Origin: Flavobacterium sp. SUN052
GTDB taxonomy: Bacteria; Bacteroidota; Bacteroidia; Flavobacteriales; Flavobacteriaceae
Assembly (NCBI RefSeq): GCF_028867935.1
Contig: NZ_JAPQNS010000013.1
Span: forward strand, 124,001-188,000
Direction: 5' to 3'
Length of the DNA: 64,000 nucleotides
The notes beneath the pieces are model-generated. The model did no database searches. It was not told the DNA's origin and was given only the letters and a program-made list of their open reading frames with translations. Positions 52,515 to 64,000 of this stretch are shown here, piece by piece. Every line of letters begins with the position of its first letter. Position 1 is the first letter of the stretch. The translations under genes and the position numbers were made by a program.

Positions 52515-53753
52515 TTATACTCGTCCCTCGGCTTCCTTATCGAAATGAAATATCATCACTTCGACAGCAACATGCTTTTGATCGTCTTGAGGCAACTTAA
52601 ACGTGAACTGAAGAAACCGATCACCACGGATACCGACGAATCTGACGACTGAGGGATGGCTTAGCGTAGTCTGCTTTACGGCTTCAATCACGGTCGACAG
52701 GCTGACGCTTTTAACAAACACAAGTAATGCAGTCTTCGAGTCATCCCACGTTAAGTACTCCAATAGTTGTGAAACTGCCTCGAGATAATGCTTCGCTCCT
52801 TTCCACACTTTGCATTCACCGACGAATAGGTTTGTACCATCTGTATTTTTGAGCAAAATATCTGTTTTGCCACTGCGATTAAATGTCTCGCCAGTAACTG
52901 TTCCTCCTGTAAACGCCACCTCCAATTGCATCAAAAAGAGGTCACGTAACGCTTCTTCATCTTTACCAACGTATAGCGAAGGCTTACGTTCTGCCGATAA
53001 ACCAAAGCGCGTCAAACATTCAATTATATCCTGATATGCCTTCACATCGACGGTTGGGTCTGGTGAGTAAGATTTAGCAGTCACAGTCGGCCTGTGAATG
53101 GCCGGACGCTTTTCAATCTTCGGAACGCTATATGTTCTGGGCGCATTCGGGTTTTGGGCTACATTGATGGCTGCGAAAAAGCTATTCTCCTTAATATAGT
53201 CATCCTTAAGTTCGCTAAACTTACGGCTAACACGGGCAGGTAGTTCAGCATTGAACGAAGCAACGTTATTATTAATAGCCTCGACGTGGCTTCTCAATGC
53301 GTGCAAGGCGCTGTTCTTCTCACGATTAAATTCCTCAGGATCTCTTGATTGGATGGTAAACTGAAACGTTATTTTGCTGCCCGATATGGCAAACTCAGGT
53401 CGTCCCCCAAGACTAAAAACCGTTGGCAGAATACCCCACAGCTCCGTTGAACCGTTAACTTGGCAAGCAATACTACACTCCCAGTAAAATCGGCTCCGCC
53501 AAAATCGACTTCGGTCTTCCTCATCAATTTTATGTTCTTTTTGTCTTGGAGGTTGAATCTCCATCGACTCCTCATGTAGTTGCAACGGTTCAAACCGAAA
53601 TTTCTCAAACAGGTACGTCCGGTACTCTGCCTCGTTGACATTTAGAATGTAGTCTTTAGGCTGCTGCTTTATTTCTTGCTTCAAATTTTCGTTTCGCTCT
53701 TCCGAAAACTCGAACCAGCCTTTATAACGGGTTGATCTGTTTGAAACAAACAT
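52515..53753 (-). CDS. PD-(D/E)XK nuclease-like defence protein
   Basis: 412 residues. The N-terminal ~230 residues are unassigned, with a central helical part. The C-terminal domain (~255-410) shows a restriction-endonuclease-like core: Glu in LFLMQLEVAF, Asp298 in SGKTDILL and Glu313/Lys315 in VGECKVWKG, followed by EAVSQLLEYLTW. This arrangement is common in phage-defence and repair nucleases. It stands upstream of no partner on its strand; a hairpin lies 25 bp before its start. It is probably a single-gene or accessory defence factor. Confidence 0.62.
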   Translation of the reverse strand: MFVSNRSTRYKGWFEFSEERNENLKQEIKQQPKDYILNVNEAEYRTYLFEKFRFEPLQLHEESMEIQPPRQKEHKIDEEDRSRFWRSRFYWECSIACQVNGSTELWGILPTVFSLGGRPEFAISGSKITFQFTIQSRDPEEFNREKNSALHALRSHVEAINNNVASFNAELPARVSRKFSELKDDYIKENSFFAAINVAQNPNAPRTYSVPKIEKRPAIHRPTVTAKSYSPDPTVDVKAYQDIIECLTRFGLSAERKPSLYVGKDEEALRDLFLMQLEVAFTGGTVTGETFNRSGKTDILLKNTDGTNLFVGECKVWKGAKHYLEAVSQLLEYLTWDDSKTALLVFVKSVSLSTVIEAVKQTTLSHPSVVRFVGIRGDRFLQFTFKLPQDDQKHVAVEVMIFHFDKEAEGRV

Positions 53754-54058
53754 TGAATTTTGGGTTTAAGGGTTGGGTGCATTTGCCGTTGCATACCGCA
53801 ACAGCAAATGCACTATATATGCTGAATTTCATGTATAAGTACCTGATTATAGGTATTTGTGACCCCTCCATCAATTCAGAGGTTGCGATGGATGCCACTT
53901 AATCCTTGCCACCTTAATAGTAAAGTCCCTCGGTTAAAGTTGGTAGAATTTTCATCTTCATCTTGGATACTAGTATTTTTCGAGTCTTCTCTGCCGCTCT
54001 CTCGATTTGGGTAACGTTGGCTCATAAACCACCGATTTGGGTAACATTGTCGGCCTGC
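53754..54058. other. Intergenic region with hairpin and direct repeats
   Basis: A hairpin at 53778-53812 (tgcatttgc/gcaaatgca with inner gttgc/gcaac) lies before the nuclease gene. A 17-bp direct repeat cgatttgggtaac(g/a)ttg occurs at 54003-54019 and 54033-54049, just after the patatin stop. No gene seen. Confidence 0.5.
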
Positions 54059-55375
54059 TTAAGCCAGCTTGTAAAGCAATGACGGGCAGTACAAACGAAC
54101 TTGAATCTCGGTTAAGTTGGCTGCATGCCGAATTAGACAGTCTATTTGCCTAGTGCTTAACTTGGTTAAATTTGTCGAAACGCTTCTGGCTACTAATTTG
54201 TCTTGGTCAGCTACTTTTTCATTATTGATGTGATCATAGTCTATACTAGCTTGAAGTCGCTCTAACACATCCGCTTTATGTGTATCCAAATCTGAAAGCC
54301 ACCCCTCCGGAATCTGATGGGCTTCAATTAACCGAGTCGGAATTCGGCCAGCCTTTAATCCGTCGAAGAATCCCGATAAACATTTTTCAACATCCCAGCC
54401 CAGCGAAAGATAAGCAATCTCCTTTCGTTGACTTTTGGCAGCGTCAAACAGATGTTGAGCCATCTGGAAATTTTTAATTCGAGTCATGAACGTCTCTACA
54501 GTTCTTAGCAACAAGGCGAATGTGTTAGTGTAGTTACCTTCAAAAGGTATTCTGTTACCTGCGTCACTGGTAATAATAACATCACACTCGTATGAACTCC
54601 CTGGCTGAGAAAGCTTTTGAATGCCTTGGTTATCATAAACACCACCATCTACCAAGTAAGGGCGAACTTGGTCAAACTGTTCAGACCTTTGGAAAAACTC
54701 CCGATCAATACGTACCGGCGAGAAGGCAAATGGAACACAGCTCGAAGCCACTACCGCCCGGGCTAGCGGAAAATCATGATGATGAAAGCGGATCGGGTTT
54801 TGCTGATAGGCATAGAACGAGTCCTCCATTTTCTTTTTCGAAAAAGTAAAGGGGCGACAGGTCTGCAGATTAGTGGATGCAATGGCTAATATGGGCCGAT
54901 CAGGTAAACCGGAAAGGGTAACCCCCTTATAGAAGATAGCATTGTAAGCCCGCTCGATCTGGCGGCTTATCGGAAAGATTGAAAATTGGAATCGGATGAG
55001 GTAGTAGGCCCATAAAAATCCTATGAGTGCAGCTAGCCAGGATAAATCAGTTTGGAAGAAATAAACGATCAAACCAATGCCCCCGACTAAATATATCAAT
55101 GCCCGGAGAGCTGTCCAGGAAAAAATGACCGAACGGATAACGCTTTTGGTGGCGAGTTTTTGCTTCAAATCCTGTTCAAATTCCGCGAAATTTGCTTGGT
55201 TCAGACAGTAATAAGCACCCGTAATTGACCCGCCAGAAACGGTTGAGATTACATCAATTTGGGGCAAAATACCCAGTTCATGCAATTTTTTGAGTGTACC
55301 TAAGTGAAAAGCCGCTGCTCGGTAGCCTCCACCGGATAAAGCAAGTCCTACTCTTTTATTTGTGTGCATAGCCAA
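54059..55375 (-). CDS. Patatin-like phospholipase with membrane insertion
   Basis: 438 residues. Patatin motifs: oxyanion loop SGGGYRAAAF (14-23), nucleophile Ser47 in STVSGGS (first Gly of GxSxG replaced by Thr) and catalytic Asp243 in VDGGVYDNQG. Two or three membrane segments lie at about residues 87-135, inserted between the nucleophile and Asp parts, placing the lipase at the inner membrane. Patatins are effectors of CBASS and other anti-phage systems that kill by degrading membrane lipids. It is the last gene of a three-gene operon, 8 bp after the E2-E1-JAB gene, so it is the likely effector. Confidence 0.85.
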   Translation of the reverse strand: MAMHTNKRVGLALSGGGYRAAAFHLGTLKKLHELGILPQIDVISTVSGGSITGAYYCLNQANFAEFEQDLKQKLATKSVIRSVIFSWTALRALIYLVGGIGLIVYFFQTDLSWLAALIGFLWAYYLIRFQFSIFPISRQIERAYNAIFYKGVTLSGLPDRPILAIASTNLQTCRPFTFSKKKMEDSFYAYQQNPIRFHHHDFPLARAVVASSCVPFAFSPVRIDREFFQRSEQFDQVRPYLVDGGVYDNQGIQKLSQPGSSYECDVIITSDAGNRIPFEGNYTNTFALLLRTVETFMTRIKNFQMAQHLFDAAKSQRKEIAYLSLGWDVEKCLSGFFDGLKAGRIPTRLIEAHQIPEGWLSDLDTHKADVLERLQASIDYDHINNEKVADQDKLVARSVSTNLTKLSTRQIDCLIRHAANLTEIQVRLYCPSLLYKLA

Positions 55376-55383
55376 CGCTAAAT

Positions 55384-57639
55384 TTACTCGTGAACATAAA
55401 CTAGAAGTTCATCAGGTGTCACTATTAGGGCACAGGTTGGAATGGGAACAGTGCGGTTCAATTCCTTAAGCTCGGTAATGGTTTTTTCATCCTTTGTACT
55501 TAATCTTTTTAGATTCATGGGATGCGTATGCCATTCCCCTATGTAACCAATCACATCACCAGTCTTTTGCTTGATCTCATCAATTTCAGCTGGTAAACTA
55601 TTAGCACCCCGAACAAACTCGCAACATGTTCCATGGCTGCCTTGCGGCTCAGCTATAATGTCGAAGATGTGGATCGTTTTAGTTTTATAATTAGCTATAC
55701 CAATCAGTACCCCCCCTGTTTCTTTAGGTGCTTGCTGCTCACTTTTCTCAAAAAGCAATTCTTTAATGCCACCCATCAGTCGCACCTGCCATTCGCTACC
55801 GGCTTTACAGGTCAATATGTCAAATGCCTGCACTTCAAAGTATTCTGTATTGATGTCTGGAAACCCTTTTGTTTCGTCCAGACTTGACATTGCCAATATT
55901 CCTGACATCTCTTGGCTCTCCCGAGTTGCCGCTGTCGCTAATATTCTTGAAAACACGCTGGCATGAAAACCCAGCGTATCATCCGCCATCACAGATGTTG
56001 TCGAACTACAACCTAGTCCCACATTTAAATGGGTAACTTCCCGTTGTGCATCGTTCATTCTCCAGGTCCGGAGTTGTTCGTTCGTGGTAGCATAAAAACA
56101 GGCGAGGTTTACCAGATCGTCCATCCTTGGATTGCGGTTTTGCCCTTCCGCGTATAATAAGCCAAGGGCTCCTGCATCCGCAATTTCTGCCTTATAATAC
56201 CTGGCGTTTCTCGGCAGTTGCTTTGCTAATAGGAAGTTCATCACCTGCACACTCGCTGTGGTGTCGATGATTTGTTGGTACTCGTGAAATTCTCTGTCCA
56301 GAAAAATTGCACTGAATTCAAAAGTAGCTATGTTATTTGTGTTATCTGCCGGATAAAATTGTTCAATTACAGTGGCGAGCGCTTCTGCTTTATTCTGGCC
56401 CAACTGATCAGCAAATAATTCATGGCGGATCAAATTATGTGGCAGCATTTTGTTATCGTCACAAATGCCTATCTGGAGGTTTCCGCTTCTTGCATCATGA
56501 AGGATCAGCTTCGACCCAAGCGAGCCTGCACCTATATAAAGGGTAGCCATAGTTTGTCCCCTTGCGGATAAATAATTAGCCATGTCTTTACTAAATGGCT
56601 CAATGTGGTTTTGATTCTCCACTTTAGTGTTCTTATCGATAGCCGAAACACCTCCGGATGGTAAGGTGATCTTAAAATTTATAAACTCATAATACCCATT
56701 GTATCCGATTATTTTACTCGGACGTTTAATTGCAAAAATTATGGGTTGCCTACGCTTACGGATAGCTCCAAGGTTATCCAATTTCAAGAGCGCCTGATGT
56801 AGGTTGATCCCCCGCTTGTTAAAGAATGCTTTGAGCTGCCCATAATTTTCTGGCAGGGATGTCAAATACAGGTCGTCGGTCTCACCATCGGCGTCCCAAA
56901 AGACAAATGTAAACATCGGGTTAGCCTTATGATCCTCGCTTACTTGCTTGGGGAATCTTGCTATGGTACCATGTATTTTATTAAATAATATAAACGGGAC
57001 AGGCCCATATGTCTGGTAAGCAGAAATCTTTTCTGCTTTTAGAAGCTGCGCCCCGATAAACAGCGCCATAGGGAGTTCGGTAACAAATCGCTGATCCTTG
57101 GAGACGACCTCGTTGATTATATCGTACCGGTAAATATGCTTTGAACCAACATTTCTCTCTAACCGGGTGGGATCAAATTCATATCCATCTTCATTAAGCT
57201 GACCGGTTGCTGCCTTGTAAAGCCATTGCCCACCCACATCCAGAAAGTCCCTTAGTTTGATGGTTGCAAACCATTCATGAGGGCTATTACGTACCAGGCA
57301 TAGTTTAGCTGGCTCATTATCCTTTGTGAGATATAAATGCGAAAGTCGTTCACTAGGGAAGTCTTTTCTGTCACTGAGGATAAAGGGCGCGGTGTGTGGG
57401 TAATTATTGAGCGAAAGGAGAATCAACATAGGCTCTGCACTAACGATAGCAATACCATTAACTGCCCCCCTACTCGGTAACGATACTTCGTAAGTGACCG
57501 GTACGACCACATTCCATTGATCAAGAGTCAATACTTTGGGATCACAGATCCCAAAGTATTGACCGATTTCCTGTATTGCTGCCTGAACCTCAACTGACAA
57601 TTTACCTACATAGGTTTGTAAAGAACTACTATATAACAT
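55384..57639 (-). CDS. E2-E1-JAB fusion (ubiquitin-like conjugation and deconjugation enzyme)
   Basis: 751 residues in three modules. Residues ~30-150 resemble a prokaryotic E2: NNYPHTAPF, HLYL and catalytic Cys114 in AKLCLVRNSPHEW. Residues ~355-560 are an E1/ThiF adenylation domain with GAGSLGS (370-376), an IDTTAS segment and a candidate catalytic Cys544 (GLGCSSTT). Residues ~605-751 are a JAB/JAMM isopeptidase with Glu640, H704xH706, Ser714 and Asp717 (GEWHTHP...STKD). It should activate a C-terminus, conjugate it and cleave it again. It compares to Cap2 plus Cap3 of type II CBASS in one chain. It starts 1 bp after the stop of the MBL gene. Confidence 0.85.
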   Translation of the reverse strand: MLYSSSLQTYVGKLSVEVQAAIQEIGQYFGICDPKVLTLDQWNVVVPVTYEVSLPSRGAVNGIAIVSAEPMLILLSLNNYPHTAPFILSDRKDFPSERLSHLYLTKDNEPAKLCLVRNSPHEWFATIKLRDFLDVGGQWLYKAATGQLNEDGYEFDPTRLERNVGSKHIYRYDIINEVVSKDQRFVTELPMALFIGAQLLKAEKISAYQTYGPVPFILFNKIHGTIARFPKQVSEDHKANPMFTFVFWDADGETDDLYLTSLPENYGQLKAFFNKRGINLHQALLKLDNLGAIRKRRQPIIFAIKRPSKIIGYNGYYEFINFKITLPSGGVSAIDKNTKVENQNHIEPFSKDMANYLSARGQTMATLYIGAGSLGSKLILHDARSGNLQIGICDDNKMLPHNLIRHELFADQLGQNKAEALATVIEQFYPADNTNNIATFEFSAIFLDREFHEYQQIIDTTASVQVMNFLLAKQLPRNARYYKAEIADAGALGLLYAEGQNRNPRMDDLVNLACFYATTNEQLRTWRMNDAQREVTHLNVGLGCSSTTSVMADDTLGFHASVFSRILATAATRESQEMSGILAMSSLDETKGFPDINTEYFEVQAFDILTCKAGSEWQVRLMGGIKELLFEKSEQQAPKETGGVLIGIANYKTKTIHIFDIIAEPQGSHGTCCEFVRGANSLPAEIDEIKQKTGDVIGYIGEWHTHPMNLKRLSTKDEKTITELKELNRTVPIPTCALIVTPDELLVYVHE

Positions 57640-57640
57640 G

Positions 57641-58801
57641 TTATCCCTGGGTTACAACTTTTCCTGCCGCACCGGCACCACCTGCTGATCCCGAAGCTGA
57701 ACCAGTGGACTTTTTGGGTGCTCTGGCCGGGCCATTAGTCGTAATATCAAAAACGATCGGTTCTGGCGAAGATTCCTTCGGTTCCACAGCCGTATTCAGG
57801 AACTTGTCTGAACTCGACAGTTTTTTTATGTATTCTTTCTTGGCATCAGCGTAAGGCGGATTATCATCATTATTGACAATCTTCTTGCTTGATGCAATCA
57901 CCCATGCTCCGCTACGGGCATAATTCAGTGCCTCGAGTGAAGTTGGTTGAACATCATCTTCTGAGGTATCATTAAAGAAACTCCAAGAGCAGTGGTGGGG
58001 CGCTAGAAACAGGTCCCAGGCCAAAGCCTCTTTGTTGACGTCATTCTTAAACCGTTTCGTATGTTCCAGAATCTCGGACCACGTAGTGTGGTCCGAATCC
58101 CCACCGAACATAGCCAGACAGCAATAGTCAGAACGCCATTTATTGGCTTTAAATCGCGCCTGAAAAACTATACTGGCCGAGTTTTTGTCCTTGTATGGTG
58201 AATCCAGATGAAGTTTGAACGGTGCGTGAATAAAGATGGAGAACGTCTCCTGATCGGTATCATTGAACCGGGTTACTACGTCTCCTGGCACTGACCGCAA
58301 GTGATTTAAGTCTTTATAATCTTTGTTGCTATCATATCCGATCATTCTAATGCGGTTGCCTGGCTTATCTTTATCAGAATGATTAGTTCTGTGCAGATCA
58401 AGTCTCCTTTCCGCTTCGCATTGATGAGCGTCTTCATCATCGTTGGTGTATTGTTCTGCAATCATCGGTGAAAACCACATCGTGTCCATAATGATCAGAT
58501 TCTGGTCACGGTCTTTCTGACTATACTTTGCAGGATCGCCCTGATAAAAGTTGTCTTTGAAACCATGGCAATGATCTCTATCGCCGTGAGTAAGAATAAA
58601 CACGTCTACGAAGAAGTTTCCATTGCGCTTCTGAAGAGAGCTCAACAAATCCTTCTTGACATCGCAAATTTTGGGCCCAGCATTTCCATCTGATTTCGCA
58701 GTAAGCTTACAGTCTATCAGTATTCTGGTTCCATCTTCGAGGGTGATCAGTGACATATCACCGTTTCCCACTGGAAAGTATTTAATCGTAGGGTTAGCCA
58801 T
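57641..58801 (-). CDS. MBL-fold hydrolase with Gly-terminated flexible tail
   Basis: 386 residues, ComEC-like metallo-beta-lactamase fold: ILTHGDRDHCHGF with H72/D74/D76/H77, MFGGDSDHTTW with Asp235, and APHHCSW with His269/His270, together a two-metal site. No signal peptide, so cytoplasmic. After residue ~350 comes a disordered tail of Lys, Ser, Gly and Ala (STGSASGSAGGAGAAG) ending VVTQG, glycine last. It is first in the operon with the E2-E1-JAB and patatin genes and has an exceptional Shine-Dalgarno sequence. It may act on a nucleotide or nucleic acid; substrate unknown. The tail could be what the E1 activates, by analogy with CD-NTase tails in CBASS. Confidence 0.83.
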   Translation of the reverse strand: MANPTIKYFPVGNGDMSLITLEDGTRILIDCKLTAKSDGNAGPKICDVKKDLLSSLQKRNGNFFVDVFILTHGDRDHCHGFKDNFYQGDPAKYSQKDRDQNLIIMDTMWFSPMIAEQYTNDDEDAHQCEAERRLDLHRTNHSDKDKPGNRIRMIGYDSNKDYKDLNHLRSVPGDVVTRFNDTDQETFSIFIHAPFKLHLDSPYKDKNSASIVFQARFKANKWRSDYCCLAMFGGDSDHTTWSEILEHTKRFKNDVNKEALAWDLFLAPHHCSWSFFNDTSEDDVQPTSLEALNYARSGAWVIASSKKIVNNDDNPPYADAKKEYIKKLSSSDKFLNTAVEPKESSPEPIVFDITTNGPARAPKKSTGSASGSAGGAGAAGKVVTQG

Positions 58802-59311: not shown

Positions 59312-59899
59312 GTGGATACTTTACAACTCAATCAGATTTCTACTATACATTTTGGGATACCACGCACCGAGAGCTTGGATATTGGGTATGATTTGCCATA
59401 TCTACAACTGACTGATGTAGACACATTTGGCCGAATTAATCCTGATGGAATCAAATCGACTATAACGCTGGCTGAACAGGAAAATCAGCAGGCTGTGCCG
59501 AAGCCAGGGGATATACTCCTTTTCAGCAAAGGCATTCGGAACATAGCCGTATTTTACCATCACCAATACCCCAAAATAGTGGTTTCAAGTTCCTTTTATA
59601 TCTTAAGAGTGAAGGATGAAGCTACAGTTCAACCAGAGTTTTTGGCTTGCTATCTTAATCTACCAGCGACTCAGAAGCTTTTGCAAAACCGCGTTGGATT
59701 AGCATCCACGGTTCCAACGTTGAACAAAAAAGACCTGCTGGATTTCCCTATTCCAGTACCGCCATTCGCAGTGCAGCAACAGCTGATTGACCTTCACAAT
59801 GCATTTTTGGGCATCTACGATATTAGTCAGCAACAACTCAATCTTCAACAAGAATTATTATACCAATGCTTTTCGACAACGCTCCAAACCCACCGCTAA
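59312..59899 (+). CDS. Half-length type I restriction specificity (S) subunit
   Basis: 195 residues from a GTG start (GTGGATACT); the later genes at 62484 and 63026 start with the same ATGGATACT, supporting this choice. One target-recognition domain is visible (YLQLTDVDTFGRINPDG, PKPGDILLFSKG), then one conserved helix with the family motif DFPIPVPPFAVQQQLIDLHN. Normal S subunits have two of each, so this must act as a dimer or with another S. It overlaps hsdM by 34 bp. Confidence 0.78.
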   Translation: MDTLQLNQISTIHFGIPRTESLDIGYDLPYLQLTDVDTFGRINPDGIKSTITLAEQENQQAVPKPGDILLFSKGIRNIAVFYHHQYPKIVVSSSFYILRVKDEATVQPEFLACYLNLPATQKLLQNRVGLASTVPTLNKKDLLDFPIPVPPFAVQQQLIDLHNAFLGIYDISQQQLNLQQELLYQCFSTTLQTHR

Positions 59900-61440
59900 G
59901 ACCCGGTCAACGGCTCGTGACTGCTTCAGAAATCAATAATGCTGTCTGGCGCGCCTGTGATACTTTCCGGGGGGTTATCGACCCTTCACAGTATAAAGAT
60001 TATATCCTCACGTTCCTGTTTTTGAAATATCTCTCTGACCTGTGGAAGGATCGGCAGCAATTCTATTTAGAGAAGTACAACGAAATAATTGATAATGCTC
60101 CTCGTACGGAACGTGCGCTGGAGCAGTTTGAACGGTTCCGACTACCCAATACGTCGCGTTACGATTATCTATACGAACAACGGAACGCTTCTGATATCGG
60201 TGAGAAGGTAGATATTGCCCTGGAACAGCTTGAAGAGGCTAACCGGGCTAAGCTGGAGGGTGTTTTTGGTGATATTAGCTTTAACTCCGAACGGCAACTC
60301 GGTCAAACCAAAGACCGTAATCGGCGGGTTAAGAATATGATCGAGGACTTCCGGTTTATTGATTTGACCCCCTCCCACCTGGAAAGTCAGGATGTGATTG
60401 GCGATGTGTACGAGTATCTAATTGAGAGTTTTGCTTCCGACGCGGGAAAAAAGGCCGGAGAATTTTACACACCTTCAAAAGTATCTACACTGCTAGCCGA
60501 GCTCGTTGCTCCTAAACCGGGTAGTCGGATTTCCGACCCTACCTGTGGTTCTGGCTCGCTGCTCATTAAAGTTGCCAAGCAGGTAGGCTCTAATAACTTC
60601 GCCATTTACGGGCAGGAGATAAACCGGAGTACCTACGCCCTGGCCCGGATGAACATGTTCCTGCACGGATTCGACGATGCGGTGATACGCTGGGGTGACA
60701 CACTCAATAACCCGCTGTTGCTGGAGAACGATCGGCTTATGAAGTTCGACGTTGTGGTAGCTAACCCACCGTTTTCGCTGGATAAATGGGGGGCTGAGTC
60801 GGCTTCAGGAGATCGTTTCGGGCGTTTTCATCGGGGGGTGCCTCCCAGGTCCAAAGGCGACTTTGCTTTTATATCCCACATGATCGAGACCACCTACGAA
60901 GGGCGCGGGCAGGTAGGCGTTATTGTACCACATGGGGTGTTGTTCCGGGGCAGTTCGGAGGGGGTTATACGTAAGCGACTTATTGACGAAAATCTGCTTG
61001 AAGCAGTAATCGGTCTGCCTGCCAATCTTTTCTTTGGAACCGGAATTCCAACGGCTATTCTGCTCTTCAACCGGGCCCGTACCAATTCGACAAATACTGA
61101 TGTGTTGTTTATCGATGCCAGCCGCGAATTTGCCGACGGCAAGAACCAGAACAACTTGCTGCCCAAACATATTGCCCGCATTGTAGAAACGGTGCAAACG
61201 TTTCGAAACACTCCGGATGGCGCAGCTGGGGTCGTAGCGGACAAATATGCTTACCGCGCTCCGCTTGAAGAAATCCAGGAGAACGATTATAACCTCAACA
61301 TTCCCCGCTACGTCGATACCTTCGAAGAAGAAACACCTATTGATATTCGGGCCACGCAGGATCAGATTATTCTGTTGGAAGGACAATTGACCGAGGCCAA
61401 AGCCCGAATGCAACGGTATTTACAGGAACTTGGATTCTAA
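59866..61440 (+). CDS. hsdM: Type I restriction-modification DNA methyltransferase (M subunit)
   Basis: 524 residues. The N-terminal HsdM helical domain (ILTFLFLKYLSDLWKDR) precedes the N6-adenine methylase: AGEFYTPSKVSTLLAELVAP, SAM-binding DPTCGSGSLLIKVA and catalytic NPPF (VVANPPFSLDKW). It methylates adenine in the sequence chosen by the S subunit. It overlaps the half-S gene, and the DUF1016 gene follows 12 bp later. Confidence 0.95.
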   Translation: MLFDNAPNPPLRPGQRLVTASEINNAVWRACDTFRGVIDPSQYKDYILTFLFLKYLSDLWKDRQQFYLEKYNEIIDNAPRTERALEQFERFRLPNTSRYDYLYEQRNASDIGEKVDIALEQLEEANRAKLEGVFGDISFNSERQLGQTKDRNRRVKNMIEDFRFIDLTPSHLESQDVIGDVYEYLIESFASDAGKKAGEFYTPSKVSTLLAELVAPKPGSRISDPTCGSGSLLIKVAKQVGSNNFAIYGQEINRSTYALARMNMFLHGFDDAVIRWGDTLNNPLLLENDRLMKFDVVVANPPFSLDKWGAESASGDRFGRFHRGVPPRSKGDFAFISHMIETTYEGRGQVGVIVPHGVLFRGSSEGVIRKRLIDENLLEAVIGLPANLFFGTGIPTAILLFNRARTNSTNTDVLFIDASREFADGKNQNNLLPKHIARIVETVQTFRNTPDGAAGVVADKYAYRAPLEEIQENDYNLNIPRYVDTFEEETPIDIRATQDQIILLEGQLTEAKARMQRYLQELGF

Positions 61441-61452
61441 CCCTTCTCACGG

Positions 61453-62484
61453 ATGATAAACTTGTCAGACCAGTTTACGGAAGTAGTCAGCCTGATCCAG
61501 CAATCCCGGAACCGGGCCATGCGGCAGGTGAATGCCGAACTAATTGACCTGTACTGGAATGTCGGGGCCTACATTAGTCAGAAAGTAGCCCGTAGCGAAT
61601 GGGGCACTGGTACTGTAAATCAATTGGCTGACTTTATTAAACAGCATCACCCTGATTTGCGAGGCTTTAATCGGCGGGGGCTGTATCGGATGAAGCAGTT
61701 TTACGATACCTACCAACCGCTTTACGAAAAAGTGTCGGCAGTGCTGACACAAATTAGCTGGACCAATCATCTGGCGATTATATCGCAGTGTAAGACCAGC
61801 GAGGAGAGGCAATTTTATTTATTTCAAAGCGCGCGAGAACAGTACAGCTCTCGCGAACTGGAACGTCAGATCGATAGCAGTTTGTTTGAGCGAACTAGGC
61901 TGGCCACGGCTCAATTATCTGAACCAGTAAAACAATTGCCCCAGCAGGCCGCCGATGTATTTCGGGATAGCTACGTATTCGAGTTTCTGGATTTGCCCGA
62001 GCGGTATACAGAGGCCGATTTACAAAAGGCACTGATCCGCAACCTGAGTAAGTTCCTGCTCGAAACCGGGCGGACATTTACGCTGGCTGGTGAGAACGTT
62101 CGTATTCAGGTAGGAAATCAGGATTTTTATATTGACTTGTTGCTCTACCACCGGTCCTTGCAGTGCCTGGTAGCGGTCGAGCTCAAGGTGACGAAGTTCA
62201 AACCCGAGCATATCGGCCAGCTTAATTTTTACCTCGAAGCACTAGACCGGGATTATCGTTTAGCCCACGAAAACCCGAGCATCGGCCTGTTGCTGTGCGC
62301 CAGTAAAGATAGTCAAGTGGTTGAATACGCGCTGAGCCGAAGTTTATCGCCAACGCTGGTCGCCGACTACAGCCGTGAGCTTATTGACAAACACCTGCTG
62401 GAAACAAAAATGGCTGAATTGTATGGAGCTATCGAACCGTTGTTACAAGATGAATCCACGAGCTCACCCACTAACGACGACTGA
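61453..62484 (+). CDS. DUF1016 (YhcG-type) PD-(D/E)XK nuclease
   Basis: 343 residues. The N-terminal domain (LIDLYWNVGAYISQKVARSE; LRGFNRRGLYRMKQFYDTY) and C-terminal nuclease domain (YVFEFLDLPERYTEADLQKA; QVGNQDFYIDLLLYHRSLQC; VAVELKVTKFKPEHIGQLNF) match YhcG proteins. Asp in FYIDLLLYH and Glu/Lys in VELK form the nuclease core. Such genes are often embedded in type I RM operons; their role there is not settled. The stop overlaps the next start (TGATG-type). Confidence 0.9.
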   Translation: MINLSDQFTEVVSLIQQSRNRAMRQVNAELIDLYWNVGAYISQKVARSEWGTGTVNQLADFIKQHHPDLRGFNRRGLYRMKQFYDTYQPLYEKVSAVLTQISWTNHLAIISQCKTSEERQFYLFQSAREQYSSRELERQIDSSLFERTRLATAQLSEPVKQLPQQAADVFRDSYVFEFLDLPERYTEADLQKALIRNLSKFLLETGRTFTLAGENVRIQVGNQDFYIDLLLYHRSLQCLVAVELKVTKFKPEHIGQLNFYLEALDRDYRLAHENPSIGLLLCASKDSQVVEYALSRSLSPTLVADYSRELIDKHLLETKMAELYGAIEPLLQDESTSSPTNDD

Positions 62485-63026
62485 TGGATACTCCCAACGA
62501 CATTAATGATTGGCGAGAATCACTCGACCCATATCAAAAGTCTAGGCTGCTGGAAAGCTTTTACCAACAAAGTCTGTTCCCTTTTCTGGATTGGCTTCAT
62601 AGCAGCGTGTCAATGACCTGGCAGGGGCTGTCCGAACAGATTAGATATGAGTGCCAGTTCAACGGGCAACACTACCTGACAGTAGCTAAACCGTCGGAGC
62701 TGCACGAAACTTTTATTCGGTTTGGGGAATCGAATTCGGATGAATTGCTGGAGGTTCAAATTCTGATTCAGCTTTCCATAAAGCCTGAATTCAATCACCC
62801 CAACGGAACCGGGGCATTAGTAGCATTTCGTTACATTGATAGTTACTATCATCTATCAGACGACTGGACAGAGATTAAAATAGCCCATCGGATCGACGAG
62901 CAACTCCACCCAGACGAATCCAGTAAACTAATTCAAGACATTCAGGCTCATTTGCTTTTTGTATTAGCCAATGAGCACCCGTCCGTAATTGACCCACAAT
63001 CCTTTTATAATACCAACAACGACTGA
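62484..63026 (+). CDS. Hypothetical protein of the RM operon
   Basis: 180 residues, acidic, soluble, no signal or membrane segment (LLESFYQQSLFPFLDWLHSS; VAFRYIDSYYHLSDDWTEIK). No family recognised. Its start overlaps the DUF1016 stop and its stop overlaps the following S-subunit start (both TGATG), so it is firmly part of the operon. It may be an accessory or regulatory protein of this RM locus. Confidence 0.7.
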   Translation: MDTPNDINDWRESLDPYQKSRLLESFYQQSLFPFLDWLHSSVSMTWQGLSEQIRYECQFNGQHYLTVAKPSELHETFIRFGESNSDELLEVQILIQLSIKPEFNHPNGTGALVAFRYIDSYYHLSDDWTEIKIAHRIDEQLHPDESSKLIQDIQAHLLFVLANEHPSVIDPQSFYNTNND

Positions 63027-64000
63027 TGGATACTGATCAAAAAAAATTCTTAACAGGTTGCAAAACTCACAATTTGCCTTACGGGTGGGAAATGAAGGAA
63101 TTGAGCGCTGTTTGTGAAAAGATAATGGATGGAACCCATTTCTCGCCGAAAAGCAAGGATGGTCCATTCAGATATATAACATCAAAAAACATTAGAAATG
63201 ATGGCTTAGACCTCGATAATTGCAGCTATATCTCGGAAGAAGAGCACAGAGACATTTTCAAAAGATGTCCGGTTCAATTTGGCGATCTGCTACTAACAAA
63301 AGACGGTGCGAATACAGGCAACTGTTGTCAAAATACATTAAAAGAGGAGTTTAGTCTATTGTCAAGTGTAGCAGTATTGAAAGCTGCACATGGGAAAGTG
63401 GATAATAGCTACCTCTTACAATCACTCAAGAGTTCACGAGGTCAATTTGAAATTAAAGATGCAATGGCAGGTCAGGCCATTACTAGAATTACGCTTGAAA
63501 AAATAAAAAACTTTGTTTTCCCTTTCCCCCCCCTCGCCCAACAACGTAAAATTGCCGCAATCCTCTCTACATGGGATGAGGCTATCCAAATCGCCGATCA
63601 ACTCTTGAAGGCCAAACAGGAGCGTAAACGAGGTCTGATGCAGCAACTACTCACCGGTCAAAAACGACTACCGGGTTTTTCGGGGAAGTGGACAAGCCGC
63701 CCAATTAGTGATTTTATTAAAGAAAGTAGAATACCTCTTGCCGAATCCGACCCAAGTAAAAGAATAACAGTCAAATTAAATTTGAATGGTGTAGAGAGAC
63801 GCGATCTGAGACGCGAAGAAAATGAACAGGTGACAGTGTATTATACTCGAAGGAAAGGACAGTTTATCTATGGAAAACAAAATCTACATAAAGGGGCCAT
63901 GGGTATCATTCCGGACGAGTTAGATCGCTTCGCTTCTTCTCAGGATATACCCGCATTTGATTTCTCAGACCAAGCAGATCCATTATGGTTCCTTACCTAT
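63026..64000 (+). CDS. hsdS: Type I restriction specificity (S) subunit, 3' end outside window
   Basis: At least 325 residues. First target-recognition domain: LPYGWEMKELSAVCEKIMDG, FGDLLLTKDGANTGNC. First conserved helix: FPFPPLAQQRKIAAILSTWD, then QQLLTGQKRLPGFSGKW linking to a second domain that runs off the window. It starts at ATG 63026 inside TGATG, coupled to the previous gene. A full-length S next to a half-length S gives the locus two specificity genes; the R subunit presumably lies beyond the edge. Confidence 0.92.
   Translation, partial: MDTDQKKFLTGCKTHNLPYGWEMKELSAVCEKIMDGTHFSPKSKDGPFRYITSKNIRNDGLDLDNCSYISEEEHRDIFKRCPVQFGDLLLTKDGANTGNCCQNTLKEEFSLLSSVAVLKAAHGKVDNSYLLQSLKSSRGQFEIKDAMAGQAITRITLEKIKNFVFPFPPLAQQRKIAAILSTWDEAIQIADQLLKAKQERKRGLMQQLLTGQKRLPGFSGKWTSRPISDFIKESRIPLAESDPSKRITVKLNLNGVERRDLRREENEQVTVYYTRRKGQFIYGKQNLHKGAMGIIPDELDRFASSQDIPAFDFSDQADPLWFLTY

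Follow-up and report, generated by a model that had tools for sequence, protein, structure and literature searches.

The window (the whole stretch of 64,000 nucleotides analyzed here) contains an operon that belongs to the known 6A-MBL system, and we read it, with a probability of roughly 0.6, as a defense operon that works like type II CBASS, with a metallo-beta-lactamase-fold (MBL) protein filling the slot of the CD-NTase, conjugated through its C-terminal tail and acting with exchangeable membrane effectors. Judged from sequence comparison, the MBL protein is probably a conjugation substrate; that it is also the signal enzyme for the membrane effector is a weaker proposition, to which we give even odds.

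The operon consists of three genes on the minus strand (Table 1). The MBL stop is followed after 1 base by the start of an E2-E1-JAB fusion, and 8 bases separate the fusion from a patatin gene, so that the coupling of these genes that had been described from the sequence alone is borne out by spacing and by Pfam domains. Both 6A-MBL names in NCBIfam release 20.0 (June 2026) carry the label "anti-phage 6A-MBL system," and the two best relatives of the MBL protein bear the names Spirosoma migulaei and Larkinella knui. The E1 region of the fusion matches the Cap2 E1 in the PDB (E=1.1e-6), with Cys544 as its probable catalytic cysteine, and the patatin is the probable effector of the operon. In all 75 fusions compared (75/75), the E2 residues C114 and H101, the E1 residues G370/G372/G375, D394, K417, and C544, and the JAB residues E640, H704, H706, S714, and D717 are kept.

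Table 1. Genes and features of the 6A-MBL operon in the window
Feature	Position	Strand	Basis
MBL-fold protein, 6A-MBL_enzyme, 386 aa	57641..58801	(-)	NCBIfam NF058524, 391 bits (cut-off 220)
MBL metal site, HxDxDH + D235 + H269/H270			Conservation in 219 sequences
Flexible (predicted) Gly/Ser/Ala-rich C-terminal tail, MBL residues 352-386	57644..57748	(-)	Composition; pLDDT <50 at 365-386
Putative conjugation tag, Q385-G386, exact C terminus of MBL	57644..57649	(-)	Motif in 93/98 fusion-adjacent MBLs
E2-E1-JAB fusion, 6A-MBL cap2_3, 751 aa	55384..57639	(-)	NCBIfam NF058523, 539 bits (cut-off 320)
Fusion domains Prok-E2_A + ThiF + Prok-JAB	55384..57639	(-)	Pfam
E2-like domain, fusion residues 42-163, Cys114 with His101	57151..57516	(-)	Pfam; C114 + H101 in 75/75 fusions
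E1-like region, fusion residues ~365-575 (end set by us), G370/G372/G375	55915..56547	(-)	ThiF match 365-465
JAB/JAMM isopeptidase domain, fusion residues 630-723, E640, H704, H706, S714, D717	55471..55752	(-)	Pfam; 75/75 fusions
Patatin-like phospholipase, 438 aa from TTG	54059..55375	(-)	Pfam Patatin, 82 bits

The metal-site residues singled out by the sequence-only reading (H72/D74/D76/H77/D235/H269/H270) are invariant in an alignment of the window MBL with 19 relatives. Across 219 MBL sequences, a set that omits L069, L079, L111, L121, L045, and one database protein of at most 330 aa (L numbers denote loci), H72, D76, and H77 are each kept in 218 and D235, H269, and H270 in all 219, while position 74 is D in 199 and H in 19. 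We take the HxDxDH site to be ComEC-like. The Gly/Ser/Ala-rich tail is likewise real, with 8 G, 7 A, and 4 S in the last 35 residues of the window MBL, whose C terminus reads ...GSASGSAGGAGAAGKVVTQG, ending VVTQG; an AlphaFold2 model built from 20 sequences (mean pLDDT 80.7, pTM 0.85) predicts it to be flexible, residues 365-386 falling below 50. Searched against the PDB, the MBL profile gave nothing at E 0.01 and the single MBL query one weak match, and the phage records gave no match.

The end of this tail is conserved in MBLs adjoining the fusion. We counted 98 of 105 distinct MBL ORFs (identical ORFs once), omitting three with a single E2 (L047, L066, and L077) and four near or at contig ends (L069, L084, L111, and L121; past L084, the remaining sequence gives a match to the N-terminal region of a fusion). 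One of RAG, RVG, YG, QG, or HG, a motif list picked after the tails had been inspected, lies within the last 10 residues of 93 of the 98. When the last 30 residues are shuffled 2000 times, the mean count is 8.0 of 98 and the highest 17. The motif is found in 50/53 representatives of clusters at 70% identity. Five MBLs lack it: in L009, L157, L070, and L105 an FG or NG is followed by a few residues, and L079 has a broken frame. A literal C-terminal Gly is present in 34/98 (null mean 15.7, maximum 29). The number of residues past the tag Gly (n=93) is 0 in 34, 1 in 19, 2 in 10, 3 in 4, 4 in 20, 5 in 3, and 6 in 3 MBLs, and the extensions, 1-6 residues long in 59 MBLs, vary in sequence and look like those of unprocessed precursors.

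The sequence-only reading had proposed that the MBL protein is the conjugated partner in a cyclase-free, CBASS-like operon, and had suggested checking whether its terminal Gly and tail composition are conserved only beside the fusion. Comparison of the tails speaks for this proposal, the motif being kept beside the fusion and other tails being found where a single E2 replaces it; the literal Gly end does not hold as a conserved feature, since 64/98 fusion-adjacent MBLs end otherwise. The tag Gly is encoded by GGC in 41, GGA in 30, GGT in 15, and GGG in 7 of the 93 MBLs, and the use of all four codons indicates that selection acts on the protein; a Gly tail arising as an artefact of translational coupling was rejected on this codon use together with the variable length of the extensions. 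For the tag subtype we count 9 changes along the fusion tree compared with 11 along the MBL tree, which is hardly different and not decisive for the idea that subtype follows the fusion tree better.

We took related loci from GTDB contigs (the best 80 of 90), further genomes, IMG/VR (4 loci), and plasmids (248 records with a relative, 16 regions fetched). In the 80 GTDB loci we find a fusion match in 74, a contig end in 3, and a single E2 instead in 3, and the fusion is present in 16/16 of the plasmid loci fetched. From 395 genomes of the phylum we retrieved 8 MBLs over the cut-off, all adjoining a fusion match, 6 of these matches being over the 320-bit cut-off and 2 under it (318 and 268 bits). 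The record labels include Bacteroidota, Proteobacteria, Cyanobacteriota, Actinomycetota, and Abditibacteriota, as well as metagenome-assembled genomes labeled as Chloroflexi and as methanogens.

A nearby CD-NTase or ubiquitin-like (Ubl) gene in related loci had been named at the outset as evidence that would speak against a conjugated MBL protein. When the flanks of the 98 fusion-type loci (flank lengths ~1 kb to 7 kb) were searched with nine CD-NTase and PycC queries (phmmer, 1e-3), nothing matched; a gene of L153 annotated with a nucleotidyltransferase domain was likewise left unmatched by these queries. There is no CD-NTase among the scanned window genes, and the one SMODS match in the source genome (8.1 Mb in 38 contigs) lies on another contig, C6, beside an AAA-ATPase-like ORF and ends ...GPSFTI, which led us to set aside an action of the fusion in trans on the genome's cyclase. 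By appearance, this SMODS-family cyclase and its neighbor (L191; G000 contig C6) form a CBASS operon of another type. Judged by size and position, no Ubl-like gene is evident in the window operon or its flanks: the 510 bases upstream contain two same-strand ORFs of at least 35 aa (66 and 53 aa), which start with GTG and do not end in Gly, and ORFs downstream of the operon have up to 58 aa. A hidden Ubl as the substrate of the fusion was therefore rejected, with none evident between the genes or in the flanking small ORFs.

The three GTDB loci with a single E2 (L047, L066, and L077; 3 of 80) lack the fusion though their contigs continue, and are the only E2-only loci with a 6A-family MBL known in context. 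Their MBLs score 398, 370, and 382 bits, over the 6A-MBL cut-off, with that of L047 sharing 60% identity with the window MBL, and in each the next gene matches PADLOC E2 models (2.9e-55, 3.6e-43, and 2.9e-42). The MBL tails are KQPHCTND in L047, PHRFYGEE in L066, and GNWCKS in L077. A fourth locus, L183 from a Runella plasmid, has a distantly similar MBL of another family, a single E2, and the tail KPWQRG; the E2s of L047 and L183 match PADLOC E2 models at E 1.5e-43 or better. On that plasmid (pRUNSL03; L183:2902-8552), the MBL, E2, and 4TM genes are followed by two more MBLs, a 136-aa gene, and a serine protease. In L066 (L066:8638-10200), a tagless PDC-M48B MBL and a 4TM protein lie beside the 6A MBL and E2 in the opposite direction.

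We further find that tails change class on a conserved MBL core. The tails of 119 database MBL proteins, which are sequences without gene context, are Gly-type in 73, KPW-type in 40, FYG-type in 5, and of none of these types in 1, and the MBL-core tree has 11 tail-class changes compared with a shuffled mean of 47.6. In a set of 56 taxa hand-picked from the 218-taxon tree, a single clade for the 16 KPW/FYG taxa is rejected (delta lnL 339, AU p=1.6e-5), showing that tail class changed more than once; the test speaks to the number of changes, not to their direction. On the tree, three Gly-type proteins, including that of fusion-type L060, adjoin the KPW-type P0087 with 96% support. We discarded a clade constraint on just the three E2-only loci, since their tails also occur in unplaced metagenome proteins and the test was therefore not a fair one.

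Related single E2s lie behind other enzymes that carry comparable tails. We searched the E2s of L066 and L047 against plasmids (40 and 12 records, respectively) and 247 genomes (12 and 6 genomes) and examined the gene preceding the E2 in 8 plasmid and 18 genome loci. The 13 pairs with an L047-like E2, L047 and L077 included, comprise six CD-NTases, four Pycsar cyclases, and three MBLs, and 11/13 have a [KR]P[WYF] tail, the exceptions being L047 and L077; among the three MBL pairs, the exact motif is thus found in 1/3, that of L183 with its other MBL family. Tails of CD-NTases in this set include VKPWCRS, TKPWRN, and PKPWFKQ, and those of Pycsar cyclases NRPWLKRS and SKPYFY. In four loci (L179, L181, L182, and L184; in the last at L184:2515-4636), a PycC ending in a KPY or RPW tail directly precedes an L047-like E2, and these tails are like the ones on CD-NTases paired with this E2 class. 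The association of these E2s with the SEC-C domain is based on five of them, with Pfam matches in L047 and L077 and annotations in L183, L184, and L186.

The L066-like set consists of 15 pairs including L066, with the cyclase-E2 fusion L170 excluded, and its tails were scored by eye. F or Y directly precedes a near-terminal Gly in 12/15 (HRFYGE, HSFYGE, NYGG, and the like), the others having FEG (L174), FHG (L175), or none (L190), and [KR]P[WYF] occurs in 0/15. The upstream genes of L166, L167, L169, L174, and L176 stand in this set without profile typing, and those of L185 and L188 were typed by annotation. CD-NTase tails here include NKPHRFYGE and KKHRFYGE, the latter from L167, whose class is not profile-typed, and in L170 a YYG lies between the cyclase and E2 parts of the fusion. 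Among 1116 stop-to-stop ORFs of at least 200 aa in the loci, the pairs included, 20 have a KPW-like tail and 6 an FYG tail. Four cyclases that precede an E1-type gene have G or A as their very last residue (L012, L013, L017, and L018), and the upstream ORFs of L014 and L015, not recognized as cyclases, end in A. PDLC00803 is the best PADLOC model of both L012 (E1 gene next, ...NQFG) and L177 (L047-like E2, ...AKPWIGY).

Taken across CD-NTases, Pycsar cyclases, and MBLs, these tails suggest that the last residues of the enzyme follow the class of the E2 and not the fold of the enzyme. We consider it an even bet that they are portable, fold-independent C-terminal tags read by immune conjugation enzymes: Gly (QG, YG, RAG, or HG) for the fusion, [KR]P[WYF] for L047-like (SEC-C) E2s, and HxFYG-like for L066-like E2s. 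Such tags would have been acquired by no fewer than three unrelated kinds of enzyme (CD-NTases, Pycsar cyclases, and MBLs), so that an exchange of ~10 residues would swap the machinery. The MBL would then be the third kind of immune signal enzyme under the control of conjugation, and would make or release a messenger.

The survey of the effector slot covered 85 of the 98 loci of fusion type, namely those from L034 onward that had 8 kb or more of sequence and a fitting gene call. A patatin of the window family is found in 15, a small protein with at least 2 predicted TM segments (called by a plain hydropathy window) in 55, and neither in the operon in 15, giving a patatin or small TM gene in 70/85. 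L157, which has an annotated patatin, is outside the 85, and L158, with a patatin three genes off on the other strand, was scored as none. One small-TM family of 32 members (single linkage, phmmer 1e-4) occurs in 29 fusion-type loci and in the E2-only loci L047, L066, and L183, indicating that the MBL and its membrane effector can stay paired even where the conjugation machinery is another. The L081 protein, which corresponds to PADLOC PDC-M48A, belongs to a TM family found in five loci. At phmmer 1e-4 the patatin is not linked to the CapV of L185/L188 and the PycTM of L184 clusters alone, and we rejected CapV and PycTM as identities for the patatin and the TM effectors, respectively.

Upstream genes vary as well. 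A WYL-domain gene lies divergently upstream in 7/16 plasmid loci and an HTH gene with ImmA/IrrE in one of the 16; regulators of these two kinds go by the names CapW and CapH/CapP, respectively, and we count them as further CBASS-like features. Directly upstream of the window operon there is neither of these, and type I R-M genes are found there. This part of the window (59312-64000), where HsdM is overlapped by an HsdS of half size (195 aa) and where a PDC-S02 (DUF1016/YhcG) gene and another specificity-like ORF also lie, has the look of a defense island. On the other side, two direct copies of ~13 bases (gttacccaaatcg) lie just past the patatin stop (53990-54050), and the next larger same-strand gene downstream (52515-53753) matches the PADLOC candidate PDC-S54 with 350 bits.

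We propose the following mechanism. The E1 domain would adenylate the C-terminal Gly of the MBL protein, the E2 cysteine would take it over, and the tail would end up joined to a lysine or other amine of the MBL protein itself or of another protein, a step that we infer from the conservation and the switching of the tail. The JAB domain, with its intact JAMM site, would then detach the MBL protein and, in homologues with 1-6 post-Gly residues, would also expose the Gly. Upon infection, the conjugated MBL protein, a putative metal-dependent hydrolase, would become active and make or release a product that switches on the effector, which would be the patatin in the window and a small transmembrane protein elsewhere; this last step is suggested by the modular neighbors. 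A few relatives have a single E2 of CBASS type where others have the fusion, and there the MBL tail is related to CD-NTase or Pycsar tails of the same E2 class. Against this reading stand the MBLs that are not Gly-ended (64/98), whose extension must be cut or tolerated, and the 15/85 loci without a recognized effector in the operon. The small number of E2-only loci with a 6A-family MBL (three), the exact [KR]P[WYF] motif in just 1/3 MBLs beside an L047-like E2, and the near-equal subtype changes on the two trees (9 and 11) also count against it.

Those same 15/85 loci without a recognized patatin or small TM gene would fit a conjugated MBL protein whose own activity is the toxic one, a nuclease of ComEC-like type that conjugation brings to its target, with the patatin or TM protein as a second effector or membrane anchor. 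The conserved metal site and a weak relation of the window MBL, in PADLOC and NCBIfam, to the defense MBLs Avs1a, LmuA, RTasMBL, and PDC-M48B point the same way. We regard this as unlikely, since a signal enzyme fits better with the exchangeable membrane-type gene in 70/85 loci and with the finding that like single E2s otherwise lie behind messenger-making cyclases. Somewhat more doubtful still is an MBL protein that acts as signal breaker or guard, clearing uninfected cells of a nucleotide or lipid inhibitor under the control of conjugation, such that the loss of its activity on infection frees the membrane effector in a Panoptes-like manner. Decoy-nucleotide defense is reported for Panoptes, and Apyc1, an MBL-fold phosphodiesterase, degrades cyclic mononucleotides (PMC9117128); however, no cyclase was matched in the flanks of the 98 loci, and the substrate would therefore be a host molecule. 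It is very improbable that the fusion has another substrate and that the Gly-rich tail reflects translational coupling or low-complexity drift, as the nearly touching MBL stop and fusion start and the low complexity of the tail might suggest, given that all Gly codons are used, that the motif occurs in 93/98 tails versus 8 by shuffling, that a different E2 goes with a different tail and that unrelated enzymes have similar tails, that no Ubl is evident in the operon, and that the one SMODS match of the genome ends ...GPSFTI on another contig.

If the MBL protein is conjugated too, as our preferred reading of a CBASS-like operon holds, bacterial ubiquitin-type attachment would be a control layer on different immune enzymes. 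With the tag rule, conjugation substrates could be tested for computationally in a simple way, and the rule predicts certain Pycsar cyclases and MBLs as such; the question it raises is what the MBL protein makes or breaks to open patatin or small TM effectors.

The closeness of the operon to the 6A-MBL system follows from Table 1 of Iyer 2006, whose row 6a has a triple E2-E1-JAB protein adjoining a "specialized" metallo-beta-lactamase (PMC1779556); the window pair has the gene pair and domain order of this row and passes both NCBIfam cut-offs. Unlike the two genes that section 14 of that paper gives as usual, the window has a patatin as the third, and the section is silent on the MBL tail and on the E2-only MBL form (PMC1779556). 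In print since 2006 and bearing an NCBIfam anti-phage name, the system itself is known, as the sequence-only reading had suspected of the neighborhood. Among the open-licence papers searched, we found no text with "6A-MBL," no recognizable account of MBL conjugation, and no account of the tag rule across MBLs, CD-NTases, and PycC or of the E2-only MBL form; the gene pair is not new, and the tag rule and E2-only form are the parts without an account there. The "anti-phage" name points to existing phage-defense work, which may cover conjugation.

The window MBL scores 19 bits against the Avs1a model of AVAST type 1 (cut-off 420), and, unlike in Bil/Bub-type Ubl conjugation, the window operon has no beta-grasp Ubl by size and position. 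For the PADLOC candidate PDC-M48 (parts M48A and M48B), compared through model matches, MBL proteins are hit by the M48B models and M48A is the small TM protein found in L081; the M48B MBL in L066 ends LSVKIS and is tagless. Pycsar (PycC and PycTM) resembles our loci through the PycC genes of L179, L181, L182, and L184 with their L047-like E2 and KPY/RPW tail, and differs in that its enzyme is a cyclase, not an MBL, and the fusion is absent. E2-only CBASS is reportedly the subject of Yan 2024. With this short form of type II CBASS, the E2s of L047, L066, L077, and L183 share matches to PADLOC E2 models and CD-NTase-like tails by E2 class; they have an MBL in place of the CD-NTase, and the window itself has the fusion form. 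In sequence, the putative signal enzyme of the window operon is Gly-ended, and the operon shares with type II CBASS an E2-E1 and JAB with intact active sites, a Gly-type C terminus on the enzyme in the putative signal slot, and a probable membrane effector. It differs in having an MBL for the CD-NTase and in the fusion of the JAB, and MBLs often carry post-Gly residues, whereas CD-NTases with Cap2 and Cap3 end in G or A (PMC10097602).
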